Shown piece by piece: positions 49,888 through 57,864 of a DNA stretch of 64,000 nt (position 1 is the first letter of the stretch; every line of letters begins with the position of its first letter). The stretch spans positions 1,054,001 to 1,118,000 of the forward strand of contig NZ_CP139302.1 of the NCBI RefSeq assembly GCF_034092375.1. The letters are read 5' to 3'. The stretch comes from Prochlorococcus sp. MIT 1300 (lineage in GTDB: Bacteria > Cyanobacteriota > Cyanobacteriia > PCC-6307 > Cyanobiaceae). The notes below the pieces were generated by a model. That model was not told the origin of the DNA and made no database searches. It saw nothing but the letters and a program-made list of their open reading frames with translations. The position numbers and the translations under genes were made by a program.

Positions 49888-49989
49888 AAGGCAAAAATTA
49901 CTCAAAAGTCGGTAAAGGAATCACCAAAGAAAAGAGCAAGAAAGGACAAAACTAATTTGCTCAAAGCTGTCAGAATGTAATTGTTCATT

Positions 49990-50265
49990 TTCGGATGAAC
50001 TAGGTGATCCACACCAGTGCTTCGGACAGCGGTTCGATTCCGCTCAGCTCCATTAAATTCCCTAAACGAAGGGGCTGCAATGGTTTCGACGGGGCATCAG
50101 GCGGGTGACTGAAGCCTGCTCGGTCAGAGCAAAACCGTAACAGCGAACAACATCGTTCGTTTCTCCCGTCAGACAGCCCCTGTTGCTGCCTGACCCTAGT
50201 TAGGGAGATGGGGTCAAGTCAGCCTTATCACCCAAATGACTCATGAGGGCTGGAAGGCCCTCTCT
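49990..50265 (+). ncRNA. ssrA: Permuted two-piece tmRNA
   Basis: The gene is circularly permuted. An acceptor piece comes first: T-arm AGCGG-TTCGATT-CCGCT and 3' acceptor strand CAGCTCC-A end near 50053. A short spacer follows, then the coding piece starting GGGGCTG at 50071, which pairs with CAGCTCC. The tag reads from the GCG at 50143 to TGA at 50193: ANNIVRFSRQTAPVAA. The tmRNA rescues stalled ribosomes and marks the product for proteolysis. The two-piece form is known from alpha-cyanobacteria. The exact 5' end of the acceptor piece is approximate; a small hairpin GTTCAT-N6-ATGAAC lies at 49983-50000. Confidence 0.95.
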
Positions 50266-50270
50266 TTATA
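50245..50270 (+). terminator. Terminator of the tmRNA gene
   Basis: GAGGGC (50245-50250) and GCCCTC (50257-50262) form a strong G+C stem around a six-base loop, followed by TCTTTATA. This is a good intrinsic terminator, except that the T run is interrupted. The next gene begins 37 bases further on. Confidence 0.7.
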
Positions 50271-50306
50271 CGTGATATCTTTAAGTTTAAGTATGAAATC
50301 GTTGAC

Positions 50307-51203
50307 TTGATCAGTAGGAATACCAGCCAACAACCTACATATCATATCTATGGTTCAACTGGCCTTCTAGGAAGTGCATTATCAGAAATATGTTCTGGCA
50401 CAAAAAGAAATTACAAAGGGTACTCATTTTCTGGCAAGGATTCATATCAAGTTGATATATCAAACAGAAAATCTATTGCACAATGCCCTCCACCACGGGA
50501 GGGGGACTACATCATCAATCTAGCCGCAATCGCACAACCAATGAAAGTCCTAGCGAATATAGATCACGCTAGGGCAATCAACGTTAATGGTAATCATAAC
50601 CTAGCCAAATACGCCGAGAAATATGGTTGCAAGTATTTCTTTATGTCTTCCGTAGAAGTATTTGGAAGGGAAATAGAGGGGCTCAAAGAAACAACCGAAA
50701 CCTCACCAATAAATGAATACGGGAGGCAAAAAGAAGAAGCAGAAATTCACCTCTTAGAGTCTAACGATAAAAACATTATCATTGGAAGAACTAGTTGGAA
50801 CATCTCCATGAATGGTATTGGTAGATGCTTAATTGATGTCATGATCGACAGTCTTGAAAAGCCAGATAGCAAAATGGCAGAAGATAATCTTTTTACTATT
50901 GCATCATCTTATGAAACAGCTGGAAACATAATAAAGGCCTTGGAGTCTAATTTTACAGGCATAGTACACATTGCAAGTCCAACGCCAATATCTAGATATA
51001 AGATAGCTAAAATAATCATGAAATTATCAAGAAGCAAAATGTTATCCTGCAAGAAATGTAAATTCAATGATCTCTCGTTCAAAGAGCCAAGATCAAGGCT
51101 AAATGTGCTTGACTCAAGCCTAAGCATTTTAACATTCAATGCCAGTTATTCTGATCCTACAAAAATCATCATAGATAGGTTAATTAACCTCAATATCGTG
51201 TAA
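50307..51203 (+). CDS. RmlD-like NAD(P)-dependent sugar reductase
   Basis: A 298-residue extended-SDR protein. I-Y-G-S-T-G-L-L-G-S-A-L near residue 14 is the nucleotide-binding glycine loop, and the catalytic pair is in M-S-S-V-E-V-F-G and Y-G-R-Q-K (YxxxK intact, near residue 138). The family reduces nucleotide-activated 4-keto sugars (RmlD makes dTDP-L-rhamnose). First gene of the island, starting with TTG at 50307. Base composition drops clearly here compared with the tmRNA flank. Confidence 0.8.
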   Translation: MISRNTSQQPTYHIYGSTGLLGSALSEICSGTKRNYKGYSFSGKDSYQVDISNRKSIAQCPPPREGDYIINLAAIAQPMKVLANIDHARAINVNGNHNLAKYAEKYGCKYFFMSSVEVFGREIEGLKETTETSPINEYGRQKEEAEIHLLESNDKNIIIGRTSWNISMNGIGRCLIDVMIDSLEKPDSKMAEDNLFTIASSYETAGNIIKALESNFTGIVHIASPTPISRYKIAKIIMKLSRSKMLSCKKCKFNDLSFKEPRSRLNVLDSSLSILTFNASYSDPTKIIIDRLINLNIV

Positions 51204-51205
51204 AA

Positions 51206-51661
51206 ATGGTCTCATCAAATCAAGTGAATTTGATTTACGTAAACGAGAACACTTTGCGTGTAAACTCTAGTGGCTTCATTTTCAAAAATGAGTATCGGTT
51301 AAAGTTGATTGAACTTGCGAAGAAACATAAAAGTGGAAGTGCGAGAATATGCCTTCACGGTAGTACATTAGAAACGACACAGAATATGATTATCTGCTTA
51401 ATGCCTCACAAATCATTCCAGGGCCATTTTCACCCTAAGGGGAAGAAGGAATCATATACAATTTTGTCCGGTGTTCTCTATGTTGAACGGTATTCAGCAA
51501 GTAACGAACTTATCTCAACCGAGGCCCTTACAGCGTCTAACACTCCATATATGCACCTAGGGGGAGAAAAGCATTTACCATATACAAAAGAAGAGATATG
51601 CCTCTACCAGGAGGTTTATCATGGAACATTCATCAAGAACAAAGACGTAATCCCCTTTTAA
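51206..51661 (+). CDS. WbuC-like cupin protein
   Basis: A 151-residue protein. R-I-C-L-H-G-S-T near residue 48 and the cupin core G-H-F-H-P-K-G-K-K-E-S-Y-T-I-L-S-G near residue 74 match the WbuC family of O-antigen clusters, in which two histidines and a glutamate bind a metal. The function is unproven but the family travels with surface-polysaccharide genes. It begins 2 bases after the previous stop. Confidence 0.72.
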   Translation: MVSSNQVNLIYVNENTLRVNSSGFIFKNEYRLKLIELAKKHKSGSARICLHGSTLETTQNMIICLMPHKSFQGHFHPKGKKESYTILSGVLYVERYSASNELISTEALTASNTPYMHLGGEKHLPYTKEEICLYQEVYHGTFIKNKDVIPF

Positions 51662-51687
51662 CTTAGCCAAAATCAATCTGGAGACAT

Positions 51688-52878
51688 ATGGAGAGCTTGA
51701 TTCAAAAAACAAGTTGCTGCCCAATCTGTTCATCAAATGATGTTGAAGTCGTATGTGAGTTAAAGAATTATCCATTGACTGAGTTATTCGTACCATCTTG
51801 TGGGAATGCAAGAGATAGAACCCAGCATCCATTAATAGAATCGGATCAAACCCTAAAATATTGCTCCGATTGTTCTCATGCTTTTCTGGAAAATGTGATA
51901 TCTCCGGATTATTTATACTCTAAAGACAACTACAATACAGTTACGACAAATAGTAGTGGCTCCTTAATAAGTATTAAAAACTTTGCGCGTTTTATAAACC
52001 AACAAAATCATGAGGTCTCATATACTATTGATATAGGTGGTAATGACAGCAATTTACTGAGACTGATAAATTGCGAGGTTGGCTGTGTAATAGATCCAAA
52101 TGCCAGTTCAAATGACAAAAGATATTCGGCTATAAATAATTTCTTTGAGGCAATTAATCCAGAAAAATTTAACGGGGCTCCTGTTAACATAGTTTCTAGT
52201 CATACACTTGAGCATATCCAGTCTCCGCATACATTTTTCAACTTCCTAAGTTCTATAAAAACTATTGAGCATGTATTTCTACAGTTTCCATGTCTAGAAT
52301 TAATGCACGAGTCAAGCAGATACGATCTCATACATCATCAACACTTGCATTATTACACATTGAACTCAATTCAAACCCTTGCCAAACAATATGGTTTTAT
52401 AATAAATGCCTATGAATATGACCATGACCACTATGGAACATTGCGGGTACATATTGCGAAAGAAAAGGTGCTTTTAAAGCAAAGTATTCATGAAAAGCTC
52501 TCCTCAAAACTCGATATTAATGACTTAATAAATGATTATAAATTATTCAATAAATCATGCTCTAATAACTCATCAATGCTAACAAAGCTTCCTTCACTAT
52601 ACTGCTATGGTGCATCTTTAATGCTGCCAATAATATACTATTATTACCCATCTCTTAGTTCCTTATCAAAAGGAATATATGACATGGATGAGAGTAAATC
52701 ATCAGTACGATATGCAAATGTACAAACACCTATTCTTCACGATGATGGCAAAGTAGATTTCAACAATATGTCCATTTGCATAACTGCAGTTGCAACAAAA
52801 TCTGCTCATCGTAAAATATTAACCAACTTGGCAAAAAGACAGCCAATATATATCTTCAATCCTTTCGGAGCATTGTAA
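51688..52878 (+). CDS. Sugar C-methyltransferase-like protein
   Basis: A 396-residue protein. The N-terminal zinc-binding part has C-C-P-I-C near residue 9 and Y-C-S-D-C near residue 58. The middle is a class I methyltransferase fold: D-I-G-G-N-D-S-N-L near residue 112, S-H-T-L-E-H-I near residue 170. The C-terminal part carries C-Y-G-A-S-L-M-L-P near residue 305, the third domain of NDP-hexose C-methyltransferases (TylC3 type). These add a C-linked methyl group to a keto sugar. Its TAA overlaps the next ATG (TAATG). Confidence 0.78.
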   Translation: MESLIQKTSCCPICSSNDVEVVCELKNYPLTELFVPSCGNARDRTQHPLIESDQTLKYCSDCSHAFLENVISPDYLYSKDNYNTVTTNSSGSLISIKNFARFINQQNHEVSYTIDIGGNDSNLLRLINCEVGCVIDPNASSNDKRYSAINNFFEAINPEKFNGAPVNIVSSHTLEHIQSPHTFFNFLSSIKTIEHVFLQFPCLELMHESSRYDLIHHQHLHYYTLNSIQTLAKQYGFIINAYEYDHDHYGTLRVHIAKEKVLLKQSIHEKLSSKLDINDLINDYKLFNKSCSNNSSMLTKLPSLYCYGASLMLPIIYYYYPSLSSLSKGIYDMDESKSSVRYANVQTPILHDDGKVDFNNMSICITAVATKSAHRKILTNLAKRQPIYIFNPFGAL

Positions 52879-53660
52879 TGGATTTAGGCATCAAAGAAAA
52901 ATCGTGCCTTGTCACAGGAGGCTGCAATGGAATTGGCGCGGAAATAACTCGATCATTACTCAAGGAAGGTTGCCGTGTAACAGCAACCTCTCGATCAGCT
53001 CCTGAAGAATTTATATCTACGTTAAACCAGGACGATCAATCAAGATTCAATTACCTATTAGCTGAACTTTCCAGTACAGGTGGTTTGCAAAATTTCCTTA
53101 ATCAAAATAATTTTGACTTTGATATTCTAATTAATAATGCTGGGCACACCTTAGACGTTAAAGACCCTTTTTGCTCATTAGAACAATGGGGAAAAGTGAT
53201 GCACTTAAACTTTTATGCCTGCGTTGAACTTGTTAATCAAGTTGTACCTCATATGAGGCGTAGCGAATGGGGCCGAATTGTCAATATTACATCTTGTGCG
53301 GGCCTTGAAAACTCAGGTCCAGTAACATTTACTACCGCCAAGGCTGCATTAACAGCGTACACCAGAAGCATGGGCCGTGTTCTGGCAATAGAGAGCCCTG
53401 GCATTGTCATGACAGCTGTCTATCCAGGTGTAATAGTCACCCCAGGTGGGCATTGGGATTCAATTCTCAAAGAAAATCCGGATCACGCTAAAAAATATAT
53501 TGAGGAACGTTGCCCACTAGGAAGATTTGGAAAAATATCGGAATTTGTACCTGCAGTTATGTTTTTCGCCTCTTCCCATGCATCATTTGCCCATGGCTCT
53601 ATCGTTGGGATTGATGGAGGACAATCAAAACACTTCATGCAATACAACTATGAGCCATGA
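52878..53660 (+). CDS. SDR protein lacking the catalytic tyrosine
   Basis: A 260-residue classical SDR with T-G-G-C-N-G-I-G near residue 13 and N-N-A-G near residue 90. The active-site block reads N-I-T-S-C-A-G-L-E-N-S-G-P-V-T-F-T-T-A-K: Ser and Lys are present but the Tyr of YxxxK is Phe. With the shorter Ser-to-Lys spacing by one residue, this departs from the canonical oxidoreductase site. The C-terminal G-I-D-G-G-Q-S is normal. It overlaps both neighbours by 1-4 bases. Confidence 0.85.
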   Translation: MDLGIKEKSCLVTGGCNGIGAEITRSLLKEGCRVTATSRSAPEEFISTLNQDDQSRFNYLLAELSSTGGLQNFLNQNNFDFDILINNAGHTLDVKDPFCSLEQWGKVMHLNFYACVELVNQVVPHMRRSEWGRIVNITSCAGLENSGPVTFTTAKAALTAYTRSMGRVLAIESPGIVMTAVYPGVIVTPGGHWDSILKENPDHAKKYIEERCPLGRFGKISEFVPAVMFFASSHASFAHGSIVGIDGGQSKHFMQYNYEP

Positions 53661-55480
53661 ATACATACAAGGTATCTGACTTCATCGCACAAAGACTATT
53701 TGAATATGGAGTAAATTCAGTCTTTGGTGTACAAGGTGGTGCGGTTGTTCATTTATTTGATTCACTACATAAATTAAATCAAATTTCAATCTGCTACACC
53801 CATCATGAACAAGCTGCTGCTCTAGCAGCCGTAGCAAATGCAAAAATCACCTCTGGCTTAGGAGCTTGTTTTGTAACGACAGGCCCGGCAACTACAAATG
53901 CTATGACAGGGCTTCTGGCAGCTTGGCAGGACTCAACTCCCGTCATCTTTATCTCAGGGCAAACTAGATTGGCACAAACTAGTTATGGGCTTGGGGTTAG
54001 ACAGAGGGGTTCACAAGAGTGCAATGTTTTAGATGTAGTAAAGCCATGGTGTAAATTTACAAAATTAATTTCTAGTACTTCACAAATCGATGAAGCAATT
54101 GATGAAGCCGTTAAATATGCACTTCAAGGAAGGTGCGGTCCTGTTTGGATAGATATTCCATTAGATATTCAATGGGGTGAATGCACCGTTAGAAAGGTCT
54201 CACCAAAAAGTATTGATACCAAAGAAGAATACAAATTAAATAGTAATGCAATAACAAAACAAATAGCATCACACCTTAAAGCATCAAAAAGGCCTTTAAT
54301 TCTTTTTGGAAGAATTAACTATCAAGAGGAGTATCTTGAAACTTTTTTTGATTACTTGTCGATTAACAATATTCCATGCGTCTCGACTTGGGGAGCCCCT
54401 ACTATTAGTGGCAAAGAAGCATTTACAGCTGGTATTATTGGGGTCAGTGGTCAGCCTGCAGCAAATTTTGCTGTGAAGTATGCAGATTGCATCATCTCCC
54501 TTGGGCCCCATTTGTCTATTACTCAATCAGGGAACAACTTTTTCGCGTTCGACAAACACCAAAAAATCATATTTATAAATATAGATTCTAATGAATTAAG
54601 TCAACTTAACTTAAAGGATAAAAGCAACATTATCTCATGCAATGTTGATGCAAATTTAATAATTCAAAGTTTACCTAAGAAGGCCATTAAATATAGCTAC
54701 GCAGATGAAAATAAGAGTTGGATGAGATTGCTCACTAAAGTTACTAATTCACTATCTCCCCAAAAAGCGGCACTGCAGCTAGGAACTGCTAATTTCACTA
54801 ATCCACATCTTTTTATTTGCAAATTGTACTCTCGGCTCAGAAAATCAGATTTAGTAGTTATTGATGGAGGCGGTTGTGCTTTATATGCTGGCTTTCAATC
54901 AATTCCAGTAGATGCTACTTTTAGAGTTATTTGTAGTACATCCATAAGTGCTATGGGGACTGGCCTTCCAGAGCTCTGCGGGGCAAGTCTACAAAGGGGA
55001 ATAAACAAAGCAGGGAAGAATATCTGCATTATTGGTGACGGCAGTTTAATGTTTAATCTCCAAGAACTTCAAACAATTAAATCCAATATTTCTTCTGCAA
55101 TAATTATAGTAATCAACAACTCGGGTTATTTGGCTATTAGACATACTCAGGCAAACTTCTTAAATGAAAGATTTTATGGCACATCTGGAGGCAGTTTTGG
55201 TATTGACATCCCTTCTATAGAAAAAATAGCTAGTACTTTTGAGTATAAATATTTTTGTGTTTCAGATGATAGCCTTATAGATACAACAATAGAAAAATCT
55301 CTCAGCAATAGTAATTCACATATGATCATTGAAGTCATCTCATCTCCTAAACATGAGAATCTCTTCACAGCATCATTTGTGAAGAACAAGGATAACTCCT
55401 ACTCGCAACAAGGCCTGCATCTTATGCGGCCATTTGAAGACTTCTCATATAGGGACTTAGATACGGATTCTGTTTTATAA
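53657..55480 (+). CDS. Acetolactate synthase-like TPP enzyme
   Basis: A 607-residue thiamine-pyrophosphate enzyme. The catalytic Glu is in H-H-E-Q-A-A-A-L near residue 52, T-T-G-P-A-T-T-N follows, and the cofactor motif G-D-G-S-L-M-F-N-L ... I-N-N is near residue 458. Its location in a sugar cluster, away from branched-chain amino acid genes and without a regulatory subunit, suggests a special role: transfer of an activated two-carbon unit from a 2-oxo acid to a keto sugar, as in YerE of yersiniose synthesis. That is inference. Confidence 0.82.
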   Translation: MNTYKVSDFIAQRLFEYGVNSVFGVQGGAVVHLFDSLHKLNQISICYTHHEQAAALAAVANAKITSGLGACFVTTGPATTNAMTGLLAAWQDSTPVIFISGQTRLAQTSYGLGVRQRGSQECNVLDVVKPWCKFTKLISSTSQIDEAIDEAVKYALQGRCGPVWIDIPLDIQWGECTVRKVSPKSIDTKEEYKLNSNAITKQIASHLKASKRPLILFGRINYQEEYLETFFDYLSINNIPCVSTWGAPTISGKEAFTAGIIGVSGQPAANFAVKYADCIISLGPHLSITQSGNNFFAFDKHQKIIFINIDSNELSQLNLKDKSNIISCNVDANLIIQSLPKKAIKYSYADENKSWMRLLTKVTNSLSPQKAALQLGTANFTNPHLFICKLYSRLRKSDLVVIDGGGCALYAGFQSIPVDATFRVICSTSISAMGTGLPELCGASLQRGINKAGKNICIIGDGSLMFNLQELQTIKSNISSAIIIVINNSGYLAIRHTQANFLNERFYGTSGGSFGIDIPSIEKIASTFEYKYFCVSDDSLIDTTIEKSLSNSNSHMIIEVISSPKHENLFTASFVKNKDNSYSQQGLHLMRPFEDFSYRDLDTDSVL

Positions 55481-55487
55481 AAAGATA

Positions 55488-56654
55488 ATGGAGCTCTCAT
55501 CAATCACAAAGGATCTTTTGGGACAAAAGATGTTCCAAATTATGGAAGAAGCAAAAAATATAGAATTAGCGGGCTCTAATGTCTTGCACTTTGAAATTGG
55601 AGATCCTGATTTTGATTCTCCTGATATTGCAAAGCAAGCAATTAAAAAATATATAGACCAAGACATAACTCATTATGCACCTAGCTCTGGCCTATTAGAG
55701 CTCAAAGAAGCAAGTCGAAAGGTGACTTTTAAGTCAAGAGGCTTCGAGCCAGACCTTGACCAACTTTTAGTCACATCAGGTGCAAATATTCAAATTTATC
55801 TAGCTTGTGCATGCCTAATAAATCCAGGAGATGAAATTATCATTCCTGATCCAGGCTTTGTAAGTTATGTATCTATAATTAAATCACTAAGAGGTATACC
55901 TAAATTTGTACCTCTATCTGAATCAAATAATTTCACTTTAGATCCCAAAGACCTTAATCATCAGATTAATTCTAAAACAAAAGCCATAATCGTCAATTCA
56001 CCACATAACCCTACCGGCGCTGTAATTTCTAGAGAAGGGTTTATAGAAATCTTTGAAATCTGTAGGCAGCACAACCTTTACTTAATAAGTGATGAGGTCT
56101 ATGGTCGCATGATCTATAATGACTTCCCCAATTCATTCTTTTCACCATCGCAAATTGACAAATGTAAAGAAAGAACCTTAATGATTCATTCCTTCAGTAA
56201 AACCTTTTCCATGACAGGATGGAGGATTGGCGCAGTAACTGGACCAGAAAAAATTATCAAGAAAATGTCACTTTTATTTGAAACAATAAATTCTTGTGTC
56301 CCGCCTTTTATCCAACTAGCAGCCGCTGATTTGCTCAACAAAGACCCGCAAGCTTCCAAATCAATGGTAGAGGAATATCAAATACGTCGCAACTTATTTA
56401 TGAATGGTATAGAAAACCTTAGGTTACTTTCATGCATTAAGCCAATGGGGGCATTCTATGCATTTGTAAATATTAAAAAAACAGAGTTAAGTAGTGAAGA
56501 GTTTTGCAAATACTTATTGAATGAGTCAAGAATTGCAGCTTGTCCAGGAAACTTCTTTGGTATTACTGGCGAAGGCTTTGTACGCTTTTGCTTTGCAAAT
56601 TCACAAGAAAATATCAGTCTTGCATTGAAACGCATCAAAGATTTGGGCTTTTAG
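55488..56654 (+). CDS. Class I/II PLP-dependent aminotransferase
   Basis: A 388-residue fold-type I enzyme of the aspartate-aminotransferase group. F-E-I-G-D-P-D-F-D near residue 35, V-N-S-P-H-N-P-T-G-A near residue 168, the PLP lysine in S-F-S-K-T-F-S-M-T-G-W-R near residue 235 and a C-terminal V-R-F-C-F-A are intact. It differs from the DegT-type enzymes normally used for sugar amination, so it may act on an amino acid or a side chain rather than the sugar ring. It starts 7 bases after the TPP gene's stop. Confidence 0.85.
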   Translation: MELSSITKDLLGQKMFQIMEEAKNIELAGSNVLHFEIGDPDFDSPDIAKQAIKKYIDQDITHYAPSSGLLELKEASRKVTFKSRGFEPDLDQLLVTSGANIQIYLACACLINPGDEIIIPDPGFVSYVSIIKSLRGIPKFVPLSESNNFTLDPKDLNHQINSKTKAIIVNSPHNPTGAVISREGFIEIFEICRQHNLYLISDEVYGRMIYNDFPNSFFSPSQIDKCKERTLMIHSFSKTFSMTGWRIGAVTGPEKIIKKMSLLFETINSCVPPFIQLAAADLLNKDPQASKSMVEEYQIRRNLFMNGIENLRLLSCIKPMGAFYAFVNIKKTELSSEEFCKYLLNESRIAACPGNFFGITGEGFVRFCFANSQENISLALKRIKDLGF

Positions 56655-56718
56655 GGTTACTTATATAAAACCACATCGAAGCTAATTTATGTTAGATTAG
56701 ATATGTTAGGTAATAGGC

Positions 56719-57864
56719 ATGGTTGATCTTAGCCTTGAGTTAAAGCATCTGCTAATTTCCGCAAAACAAAGTGACTTTCAAGTAGCAAAGATTACCTATC
56801 AAGCTCTTGGGCATTCCATTTTTGACCCTATCATTTACGATTACTTTTATCAAAAAGGTGTTATCAAGCAAAAAGCGCTATTTATATGTGATTTCACAAA
56901 AGCTGCTAACAGCATAGTACTAAACAAATTCGGCAAAGATTCACAAATATTTTTACATAATAGTGTTGCATCTTTTGGGATAGAGAGTCTTGGTTATTTA
57001 CCACAATCTATACATGATACAAGTGCTCTTTATAACAACTATTCTATTCCACATAATCCACCAATATGGGCAGCAATCGACAATTATATAAATCAAGATT
57101 CCGATATCATGTCATCATTTTCTCCATCAAATAATATTCATGATATGTATAAGAATTTCTTAAAGGATTATGGGCTTGATGATTGTAATTATATTTGTAT
57201 TCATTGCAGGCAAGCTGGTTACAAGAGTGAGCAACTTTCCGGCAATCAATCTTTTAGAAATGCAGATATTTCCTGCCTGAAAGAAAGTGTTGAAGTGCTA
57301 GAAAAATATGGCATTAAAGCTGTTCAAATGGGCTCTCCAGGTACTGAGCCATTAATTCACCAAAATGTAGTTAATTATTCTTCTAGTCGTTATGCATCAT
57401 CGACAATGGATTTATTAGTAGCTAATGGGTCCCTCGCATGGTTAGGCGACTCATCTGGAGCCAGTGCATATGCAACTTTATTCAGAAAGCCTCGAATATT
57501 ATTTAATATGCCATTAACTGGTTGCATTGGATATTCCTCGCAAGATCTACATTTATTCATGAAGCCCCATCTAATAGAGAGTTCAACAAAATTAGAAATT
57601 AGGAATGCATTTGCAATCGGTGTTGATCGTTACTCATGCTCAGAAAAACTGGCGAGCATGGGCTTTTACTATCAAATCAATACTGGTAATGAAATATCGA
57701 ATGCAGTCTCAGAGTATTTGCCACATATAATCTCAAAACAACATAAGGAATATATAACTAATTGCAGATCCAGTCATTTATTTAATGCTTTTTATAGTCA
57801 ACTTCGACCTGATTCATATATTCGAGGTGCTCATGGAGCAATTGCCATGAATCTAATTGCTTAA
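56719..57864 (+). CDS. TIGR04372-like glycosyltransferase
   Basis: A 381-residue protein. I-H-C-R-Q-A-G-Y near residue 158, R-N-A-D-I-S near 178, G-I-K-A-V-Q-M-G near 198 and W-L-G-D-S-S-G-A-S near 236 fit the TIGR04372 family pattern (H-x-R-D-x-x-Y, R-N-x-D-I, V-x-R-M-G, G-x-x-S-G), which is found in polysaccharide clusters. It is the probable transferase of the sugar made by the preceding enzymes. A 64-base gap separates it from the aminotransferase. Confidence 0.72.
   Translation: MVDLSLELKHLLISAKQSDFQVAKITYQALGHSIFDPIIYDYFYQKGVIKQKALFICDFTKAANSIVLNKFGKDSQIFLHNSVASFGIESLGYLPQSIHDTSALYNNYSIPHNPPIWAAIDNYINQDSDIMSSFSPSNNIHDMYKNFLKDYGLDDCNYICIHCRQAGYKSEQLSGNQSFRNADISCLKESVEVLEKYGIKAVQMGSPGTEPLIHQNVVNYSSSRYASSTMDLLVANGSLAWLGDSSGASAYATLFRKPRILFNMPLTGCIGYSSQDLHLFMKPHLIESSTKLEIRNAFAIGVDRYSCSEKLASMGFYYQINTGNEISNAVSEYLPHIISKQHKEYITNCRSSHLFNAFYSQLRPDSYIRGAHGAIAMNLIA

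Follow-up and report, generated by a model that had tools for sequence, protein, structure and literature searches.

In the stretch of the Prochlorococcus sp. MIT 1300 genome analysed here, a total of seven open reading frames (ORFs) form an operon beside the transfer-messenger RNA (tmRNA) gene. The stretch, called the window, covers 64,000 nucleotides (positions 1054001-1118000 of a single-contig 1.855-Mb genome). With a probability of roughly 0.6, the operon is a horizontally acquired surface-glycan island making a nucleoside diphosphate (NDP) sugar with a branched carbon skeleton. By comparison with other genomes, its thiamine diphosphate (ThDP) enzyme groups with the YerE-like carboligases, and the corresponding gene is linked to the genes of a class I aminotransferase and a short-chain dehydrogenase/reductase (SDR). 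The idea of a carbon-branched sugar, put forward in the initial annotation, is well supported by this grouping, by relatives of the carboligase linked to RfbF-RfbG-RfbH, and by the recurrence of the SDR–ThDP enzyme–aminotransferase triple and of the aminotransferase–ThDP enzyme pair. The probable novelty is the aminotransferase acting as donor supplier beside a known kind of YerE-like carboligase.

The ORF coordinates agree with the earlier description of seven genes on one strand next to the tmRNA, with intergenic gaps of -4 to 64 bases, and the family names proposed for all seven proteins have been recovered by profile matches. The operon was thus placed correctly, although its assigned start, 50272, lies inside the tmRNA end; the first ORF begins 23 bases past the tmRNA end. 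The features are as follows:

49963-50284, + strand: tmRNA (permuted); conserved neighbour of an RlmL-like gene
50307-51203, + strand: RmlD-like NDP-sugar reductase, candidate 4-keto or branch reductase; family profile match
51206-51661, + strand: WbuC-family cupin (TIGR04366, 54.3 bits, cut-off 42)
51688-52878, + strand: protein resembling sugar C-methyltransferases; its N-terminal region has Cys pairs, and HQH stands at the catalytic His position
52878-53660, + strand: classical SDR, putative branch-ketone reductase, with Phe for the catalytic Tyr
53657-55480, + strand: YerE/JanthE-like ThDP carboligase, GDG motif intact; profiles, trees and structure match
55488-56654, + strand: class I aminotransferase (class I/II family match) from a rare subfamily whose genes neighbour those of YerE-like enzymes; proposed supplier of an alpha-keto acid donor
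56719-57864, + strand: TIGR04372-family glycosyltransferase-like protein, proposed sugar transferase (111 bits, cut-off 45)

The YerE-like carboligase

The ThDP enzyme possesses the three-domain fold of its class, with the GDG...N motif (IGDGSLMFNL), the catalytic Glu and the residues H49, H50, E51 and Q52, invariant in the alignment. Against the acetohydroxyacid synthase (AHAS) profile it reaches 244 bits and thereby does not pass the cut-off of 538. Two maximum-likelihood trees of 59 and 65 rows have been calculated by quick searches, with the SH-aLRT (Shimodaira–Hasegawa-like approximate likelihood ratio test) as the sole support measure. In these trees the AHAS references fall outside a clade with a support of 100 comprising PpYerE, JanthE, the window enzyme and the RfbF-RfbG-RfbH-linked enzymes. 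Many relatives within the clade are encoded beside these three genes of the CDP-3,6-dideoxy-4-keto-hexose pathway.

A sequence search of the PDB returned JanthE of Janthinobacterium sp. HH01 (8rph; E 2e-63) at the top, followed by 5ahk, deposited as the Pseudomonas protegens AHAS and presumably identical with PpYerE; plant, yeast and enteric AHAS ranked lower. JanthE, the closest solved relative, accepts non-activated ketones and shares the stretch NNxGYLxI(R/K)HTQ with the window enzyme, whereas the overall identity is about 27% and JanthE carries CDG in place of GDG. Both PpYerE and JanthE have solved structures; YerE and JanthE take ketone acceptors, and the related ErwE favours 4-hydroxy-2-oxo acids (PMC12247030). 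The comparison of a predicted structure with YerE and AHAS, suggested initially, has been carried out on an AlphaFold model (predicted local distance difference test, pLDDT, 81.5). The best Foldseek match is JanthE (E 6e-45, Z 44.2) with AHAS close behind (1.5e-38, Z 43.0), so that the fold alone cannot separate the two. Taken by its tree position, profile scores and closest structure, the window enzyme belongs with the YerE-like ketone carboligases rather than with AHAS, and is predicted to decarboxylate an alpha-keto acid and attach the remainder to a keto group.

Linkage to an aminotransferase and an SDR

Among 84,980 species genomes scanned, one near relative came to light, in an uncultured Synechococcaceae genome (L058). 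This locus encodes a methyltransferase, an SDR (66% identity), a ThDP enzyme (50%) and an aminotransferase (64%) in the same order as in the window, which indicates that the arrangement goes beyond chance. The window and L058 enzymes belong to a five-member ThDP clade (support 99) together with those of L059 (Pelagibacteraceae), L046 and L047, and throughout this clade an SDR gene adjoins the ThDP gene or sits at a fitting contig end. At L059, a methyltransferase gene accompanies the SDR (42% identity to the window) and the ThDP enzyme (37%); next to them lie an aldolase gene of the 4-hydroxy-2-oxovalerate type and a fragment resembling acetaldehyde dehydrogenase. The L046 locus arranges ThDP enzyme, SDR, acetaldehyde dehydrogenase and aldolase in one row; the 4-hydroxy-2-oxovalerate aldolase of this row (L046:5168-6931) carries a fused methyltransferase-like domain. 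In genome G011 the genes are split over two contig ends, with the ThDP gene at L047 and the SDR and aminotransferase (56%) genes at L115.

The source of the keto acid in this clade is therefore either an aminotransferase (window, L058, G011) or an aldolase with acetaldehyde dehydrogenase (L046, L059). The SDR stays while the aminotransferase is exchanged for the aldolase pair, which suggests, from small numbers, that the aminotransferase acts before the carboligation. It thus probably supplies the alpha-keto acid donor, and the side-chain amination suggested in the initial annotation becomes less likely. Related ThDP genes near DegT aminotransferases have been noticed in further Pelagibacteraceae (L060, L061, L062, L064, L065); at L061, L062 and L064 an SDR gene directly follows, forming another ThDP enzyme–SDR module.

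The aminotransferase retains the invariant residues N174, D202, Y205, K238, R246 and R366, that is, the pyridoxal phosphate Lys, the NPTG Asn, the DEVY Asp and Tyr, and the C-terminal Arg. In a survey of 300 Cyanobiaceae genomes (E ≤ 1e-75 for the aminotransferase subfamily, E ≤ 1e-50 for the ThDP enzyme), the former occurs in 5 genomes and the latter in 28, and all five aminotransferase genomes have both. With the genome of the window left aside, all four aminotransferase genomes are among the 27 of 299 with the ThDP enzyme (p 5.4e-5). The two genes are adjacent in G060 and G252. A scattering of the genes, named initially as an outcome that would speak against the idea, has not been found except in G167, where the pair lies apart on two contigs. 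As for the triple as a fixed unit, the complete set recurs in one other genome and the pair in many.

Viral contigs, scanned with the aminotransferase alignment alone, yielded nine loci, and in every one a ThDP gene belonging to the same group lies no more than 2.5 kb away; the spacing is -22 to 120 bases in six. Phage hallmarks are found beside four of the nine: sliding clamp and clamp loader genes (L143), terminase and portal genes (L142), a gp32-like gene (L141) and a phage ATPase gene (L138). The aminotransferases found with the pair form one group apart from the housekeeping ones (support 87/98), and their ThDP partners are scattered over several tree branches. By these phylogenies, the aminotransferase appears either to have remained the partner of differing YerE-like enzymes or to have been recruited beside them more than once. 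No match to the pair was obtained on plasmids, and isolated-phage records gave only distant matches (aminotransferase up to 38% identity) or annotated ordinary acetolactate synthases, some of these records being bacterial in size or name. Uncultivated phages with YerE-like ThDP genes, some of them T4-like, are represented by L137-L145, L125, L127, L129 and L130, nine of which include the aminotransferase. Many of these phage loci also have RfbH-like and RmlB-like genes, and it is possible that phages encode branched-sugar pathways.

Accompanying genes and genomic setting

The substitution of Phe for the catalytic Tyr (YxxxK motif), pointed out earlier for the SDR, is present in the window sequence (VTFTTAK). 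Tyr is found in the relatives at L058, L059 and L118, and Phe in the phage relative at L119, which argues against a simple sequencing error. The latter (L119:8001-8702), which belongs to the subfamily of the window SDR, stands alone next to a phage terminase gene. Neither the SDR nor the RmlD-like protein has a close relative in 299 Cyanobiaceae genomes at the thresholds used. The RmlD-like protein matches RmlD_sub_bind with 93.9 bits and the rmlD equivalog with 91 bits (cut-off 224, not passed), and by the NCBIfam cut-off is classed as not a true RmlD.

The methyltransferase is nearest to D-mycarose 3-C-methyltransferase/TcaB9. The alignment spans the N-terminal Cys region, the S-adenosylmethionine domain and the catalytic His region, but the similarity is weak (46 bits) and the HEH of the reference is HQH in the window. 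Similar methyltransferases are encoded beside or near the SDR at L058, L059 and L118. At L118 (2497-6180), a methyltransferase and an SDR, both of the window type, precede a split transketolase that occupies the position of the YerE-like enzyme, as though the same methyltransferase–SDR module could be served by various ThDP enzymes.

The GC content of the operon is 36.5%, compared with 41.9% for the window. The RlmL-like gene and the tmRNA are adjacent in ten relatives (L185-L194), among which the sequence on the far side of the tmRNA is hypervariable. Six relatives have been read in detail, and three of these (L186, L189, L190) have what look like sugar-nucleotide, glycosyltransferase or other glycan genes beyond the tmRNA, as judged by reading the sequences. 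This differing, often glycan-related content indicates that the operon sits at a variable, glycan-rich site. The genes look like a GC-poor island of surface-glycan type acquired horizontally. A search for att direct repeats flanking the island revealed only weak ones, and insertion by a tmRNA-targeting integrase is therefore at most a possibility.

A second carbohydrate cluster is located in the same genome (L080:474-5683; G000:C1:1324473-1329682). Its genes include those of a split transketolase and an HldE-like fusion, along with a 4,6-dehydratase-like and an epimerase gene, and it possibly serves another ThDP-made sugar; G011 (L047) has an E1-type pair at the corresponding place.

Proposed route and its alternatives

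In the proposed route, whose acceptor, order of steps and product are those we infer, as are the part that the aminotransferase plays and the direction in which it works, the enzymes would act sequentially. An amino acid would be turned into its alpha-keto acid by the class I aminotransferase; the YerE-like enzyme would decarboxylate this acid and join the resulting acyl unit to an NDP-keto sugar at its keto group, giving a tertiary alcohol that carries an acyl branch. The branch ketone would be reduced by the SDR (or the RmlD-like reductase), a methyl group would be added by the C-methyltransferase, probably on a 4-keto sugar, and the TIGR04372 protein would bring the product into a surface glycan.

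The likeness to yersiniose synthesis (YerE/YerF), invoked in the initial annotation, holds for the carboligase but not for the pathway. The yersiniose A system of Yersinia pseudotuberculosis also pairs a YerE-like ThDP carboligase with a reductase, with a proposed acyl addition to a keto sugar. In contrast, no match to CDP-glucose 4,6-dehydratase in the genome of the window passes the cut-off (best match 108 bits, cut-off 278), and the operon encodes two further enzymes, the C-methyltransferase and the class I aminotransferase; the SDR and RmlD-like genes are candidates for the part of YerF. Profile search likewise found no CDP-glucose 4,6-dehydratase within the window, in agreement with the absence of a 4,6-dehydratase noted previously. 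Four stretches of the genome have been read; RmlA-, RmlC-, RmlD-, RmlB-, Gmd- and Fcl-like genes, most of them named by this reading, lie about 190 kb from the operon. Given these RmlB and Gmd candidates and the lack of the CDP-glucose enzyme, the acceptor is perhaps dTDP-4-keto-6-deoxyglucose (RmlB) or GDP-4-keto-6-deoxymannose (Gmd). Erwiniose formation by ErwE resembles this group in employing a YerE-like enzyme whose keto acid donors are long or hydroxylated, a kind that would be supplied at the aldolase-linked loci; the window operon differs in having the aminotransferase in place of an aldolase.

Several observations weigh against a carbon-branched sugar made in this way: (i) the Z scores of JanthE and AHAS are nearly equal; (ii) the SDR of the window is missing its catalytic Tyr, and the window and L058 methyltransferases are only 26% identical; (iii) the operon has no keto-sugar-forming enzyme, which leaves the acceptor a guess; (iv) the nine viral loci represent about five independent lineages, and at three loci (L138-L140) the ThDP and aminotransferase genes are separated by 1.7-2.5 kb; (v) the ThDP and aminotransferase genes of G011 are at two separate contig ends; (vi) the exchange of aminotransferase and aldolase has been seen at few loci, the sampling across all ThDP loci being too thin for a test; (vii) RmlD-like and cupin genes were not found with the triple at other loci, and the TIGR04372 protein has only weak matches elsewhere (L054, L051). 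As these three genes do not recur with the triple, a single seven-gene pathway is no more than a possibility.

Among other explanations, an aminotransferase acting after carboligation, on the branch ketone, would give an aminoalkyl-branched sugar. This order fits the adjoining aminotransferase and carboligase genes, the ketone might stay free where the SDR lacks its Tyr, and transaminated branches are known, for instance in the kibdelomycin sugar (PMC12247030). It is nevertheless unlikely: the sister clusters retain the SDR but have the keto-acid-forming aldolase pair and no aminotransferase, and L058 combines a normal SDR Tyr with an aminotransferase. Nucleotide-sugar aminotransferases are, moreover, mostly of the DegT type, which also weighs against amination at this late step.

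AHAS-fold enzymes couple two keto acids, and a ThDP enzyme, an SDR and an aminotransferase could assemble an uncommon amino acid or hydroxy acid by joining, reducing and transaminating them; this would be attached to a glycan in acyl or amide linkage, with no branched sugar involved. Such a role appears rather remote, given that relatives of the ThDP enzyme lie with RfbF-RfbG-RfbH and the phage copies with RmlB- and RfbH-like genes, that the profile matches of the operon reveal no ligase or acyltransferase gene, and that the tree puts the enzyme with ketone carboligases. The high significance of the AHAS profile matches would agree with a second acetolactate synthase and a branched-chain transaminase in branched-chain amino acid metabolism. 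This is very improbable: the score is far under every AHAS cut-off, the enzyme stands outside the AHAS group in the trees, no regulatory subunit gene lies alongside, the neighbours being the SDR and aminotransferase genes, and glycan genes surround the gene and its relatives. On profile cut-offs and trees, the AHAS or valine role has been rejected, and none of the homologues of the ThDP enzyme and SDR was found to act in valine metabolism, which the initial annotation had regarded as a possible refutation.

Returning to the carbon-branched sugar, we propose tentatively that the route is a previously undescribed one. A dedicated transaminase would feed a YerE-like enzyme, the skeleton of an amino acid would become the branch of a (possibly C-methylated) sugar, and the module would move among picocyanobacteria, other bacteria and T4-like phages; the aminotransferase–YerE pair may have been described earlier in the literature on YerE clusters. 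The rare class I aminotransferase and the YerE-like carboligase, an orphan pair of cyanobacteria and phages, are hereby tied to testable chemistry. Ketone-accepting carboligases are wanted as biocatalysts, and the natural donor of each enzyme might be guessed from its partner gene. The locus also hints at uncharacterised surface sugars of abundant marine phototrophs, structures of the type that phages recognise.

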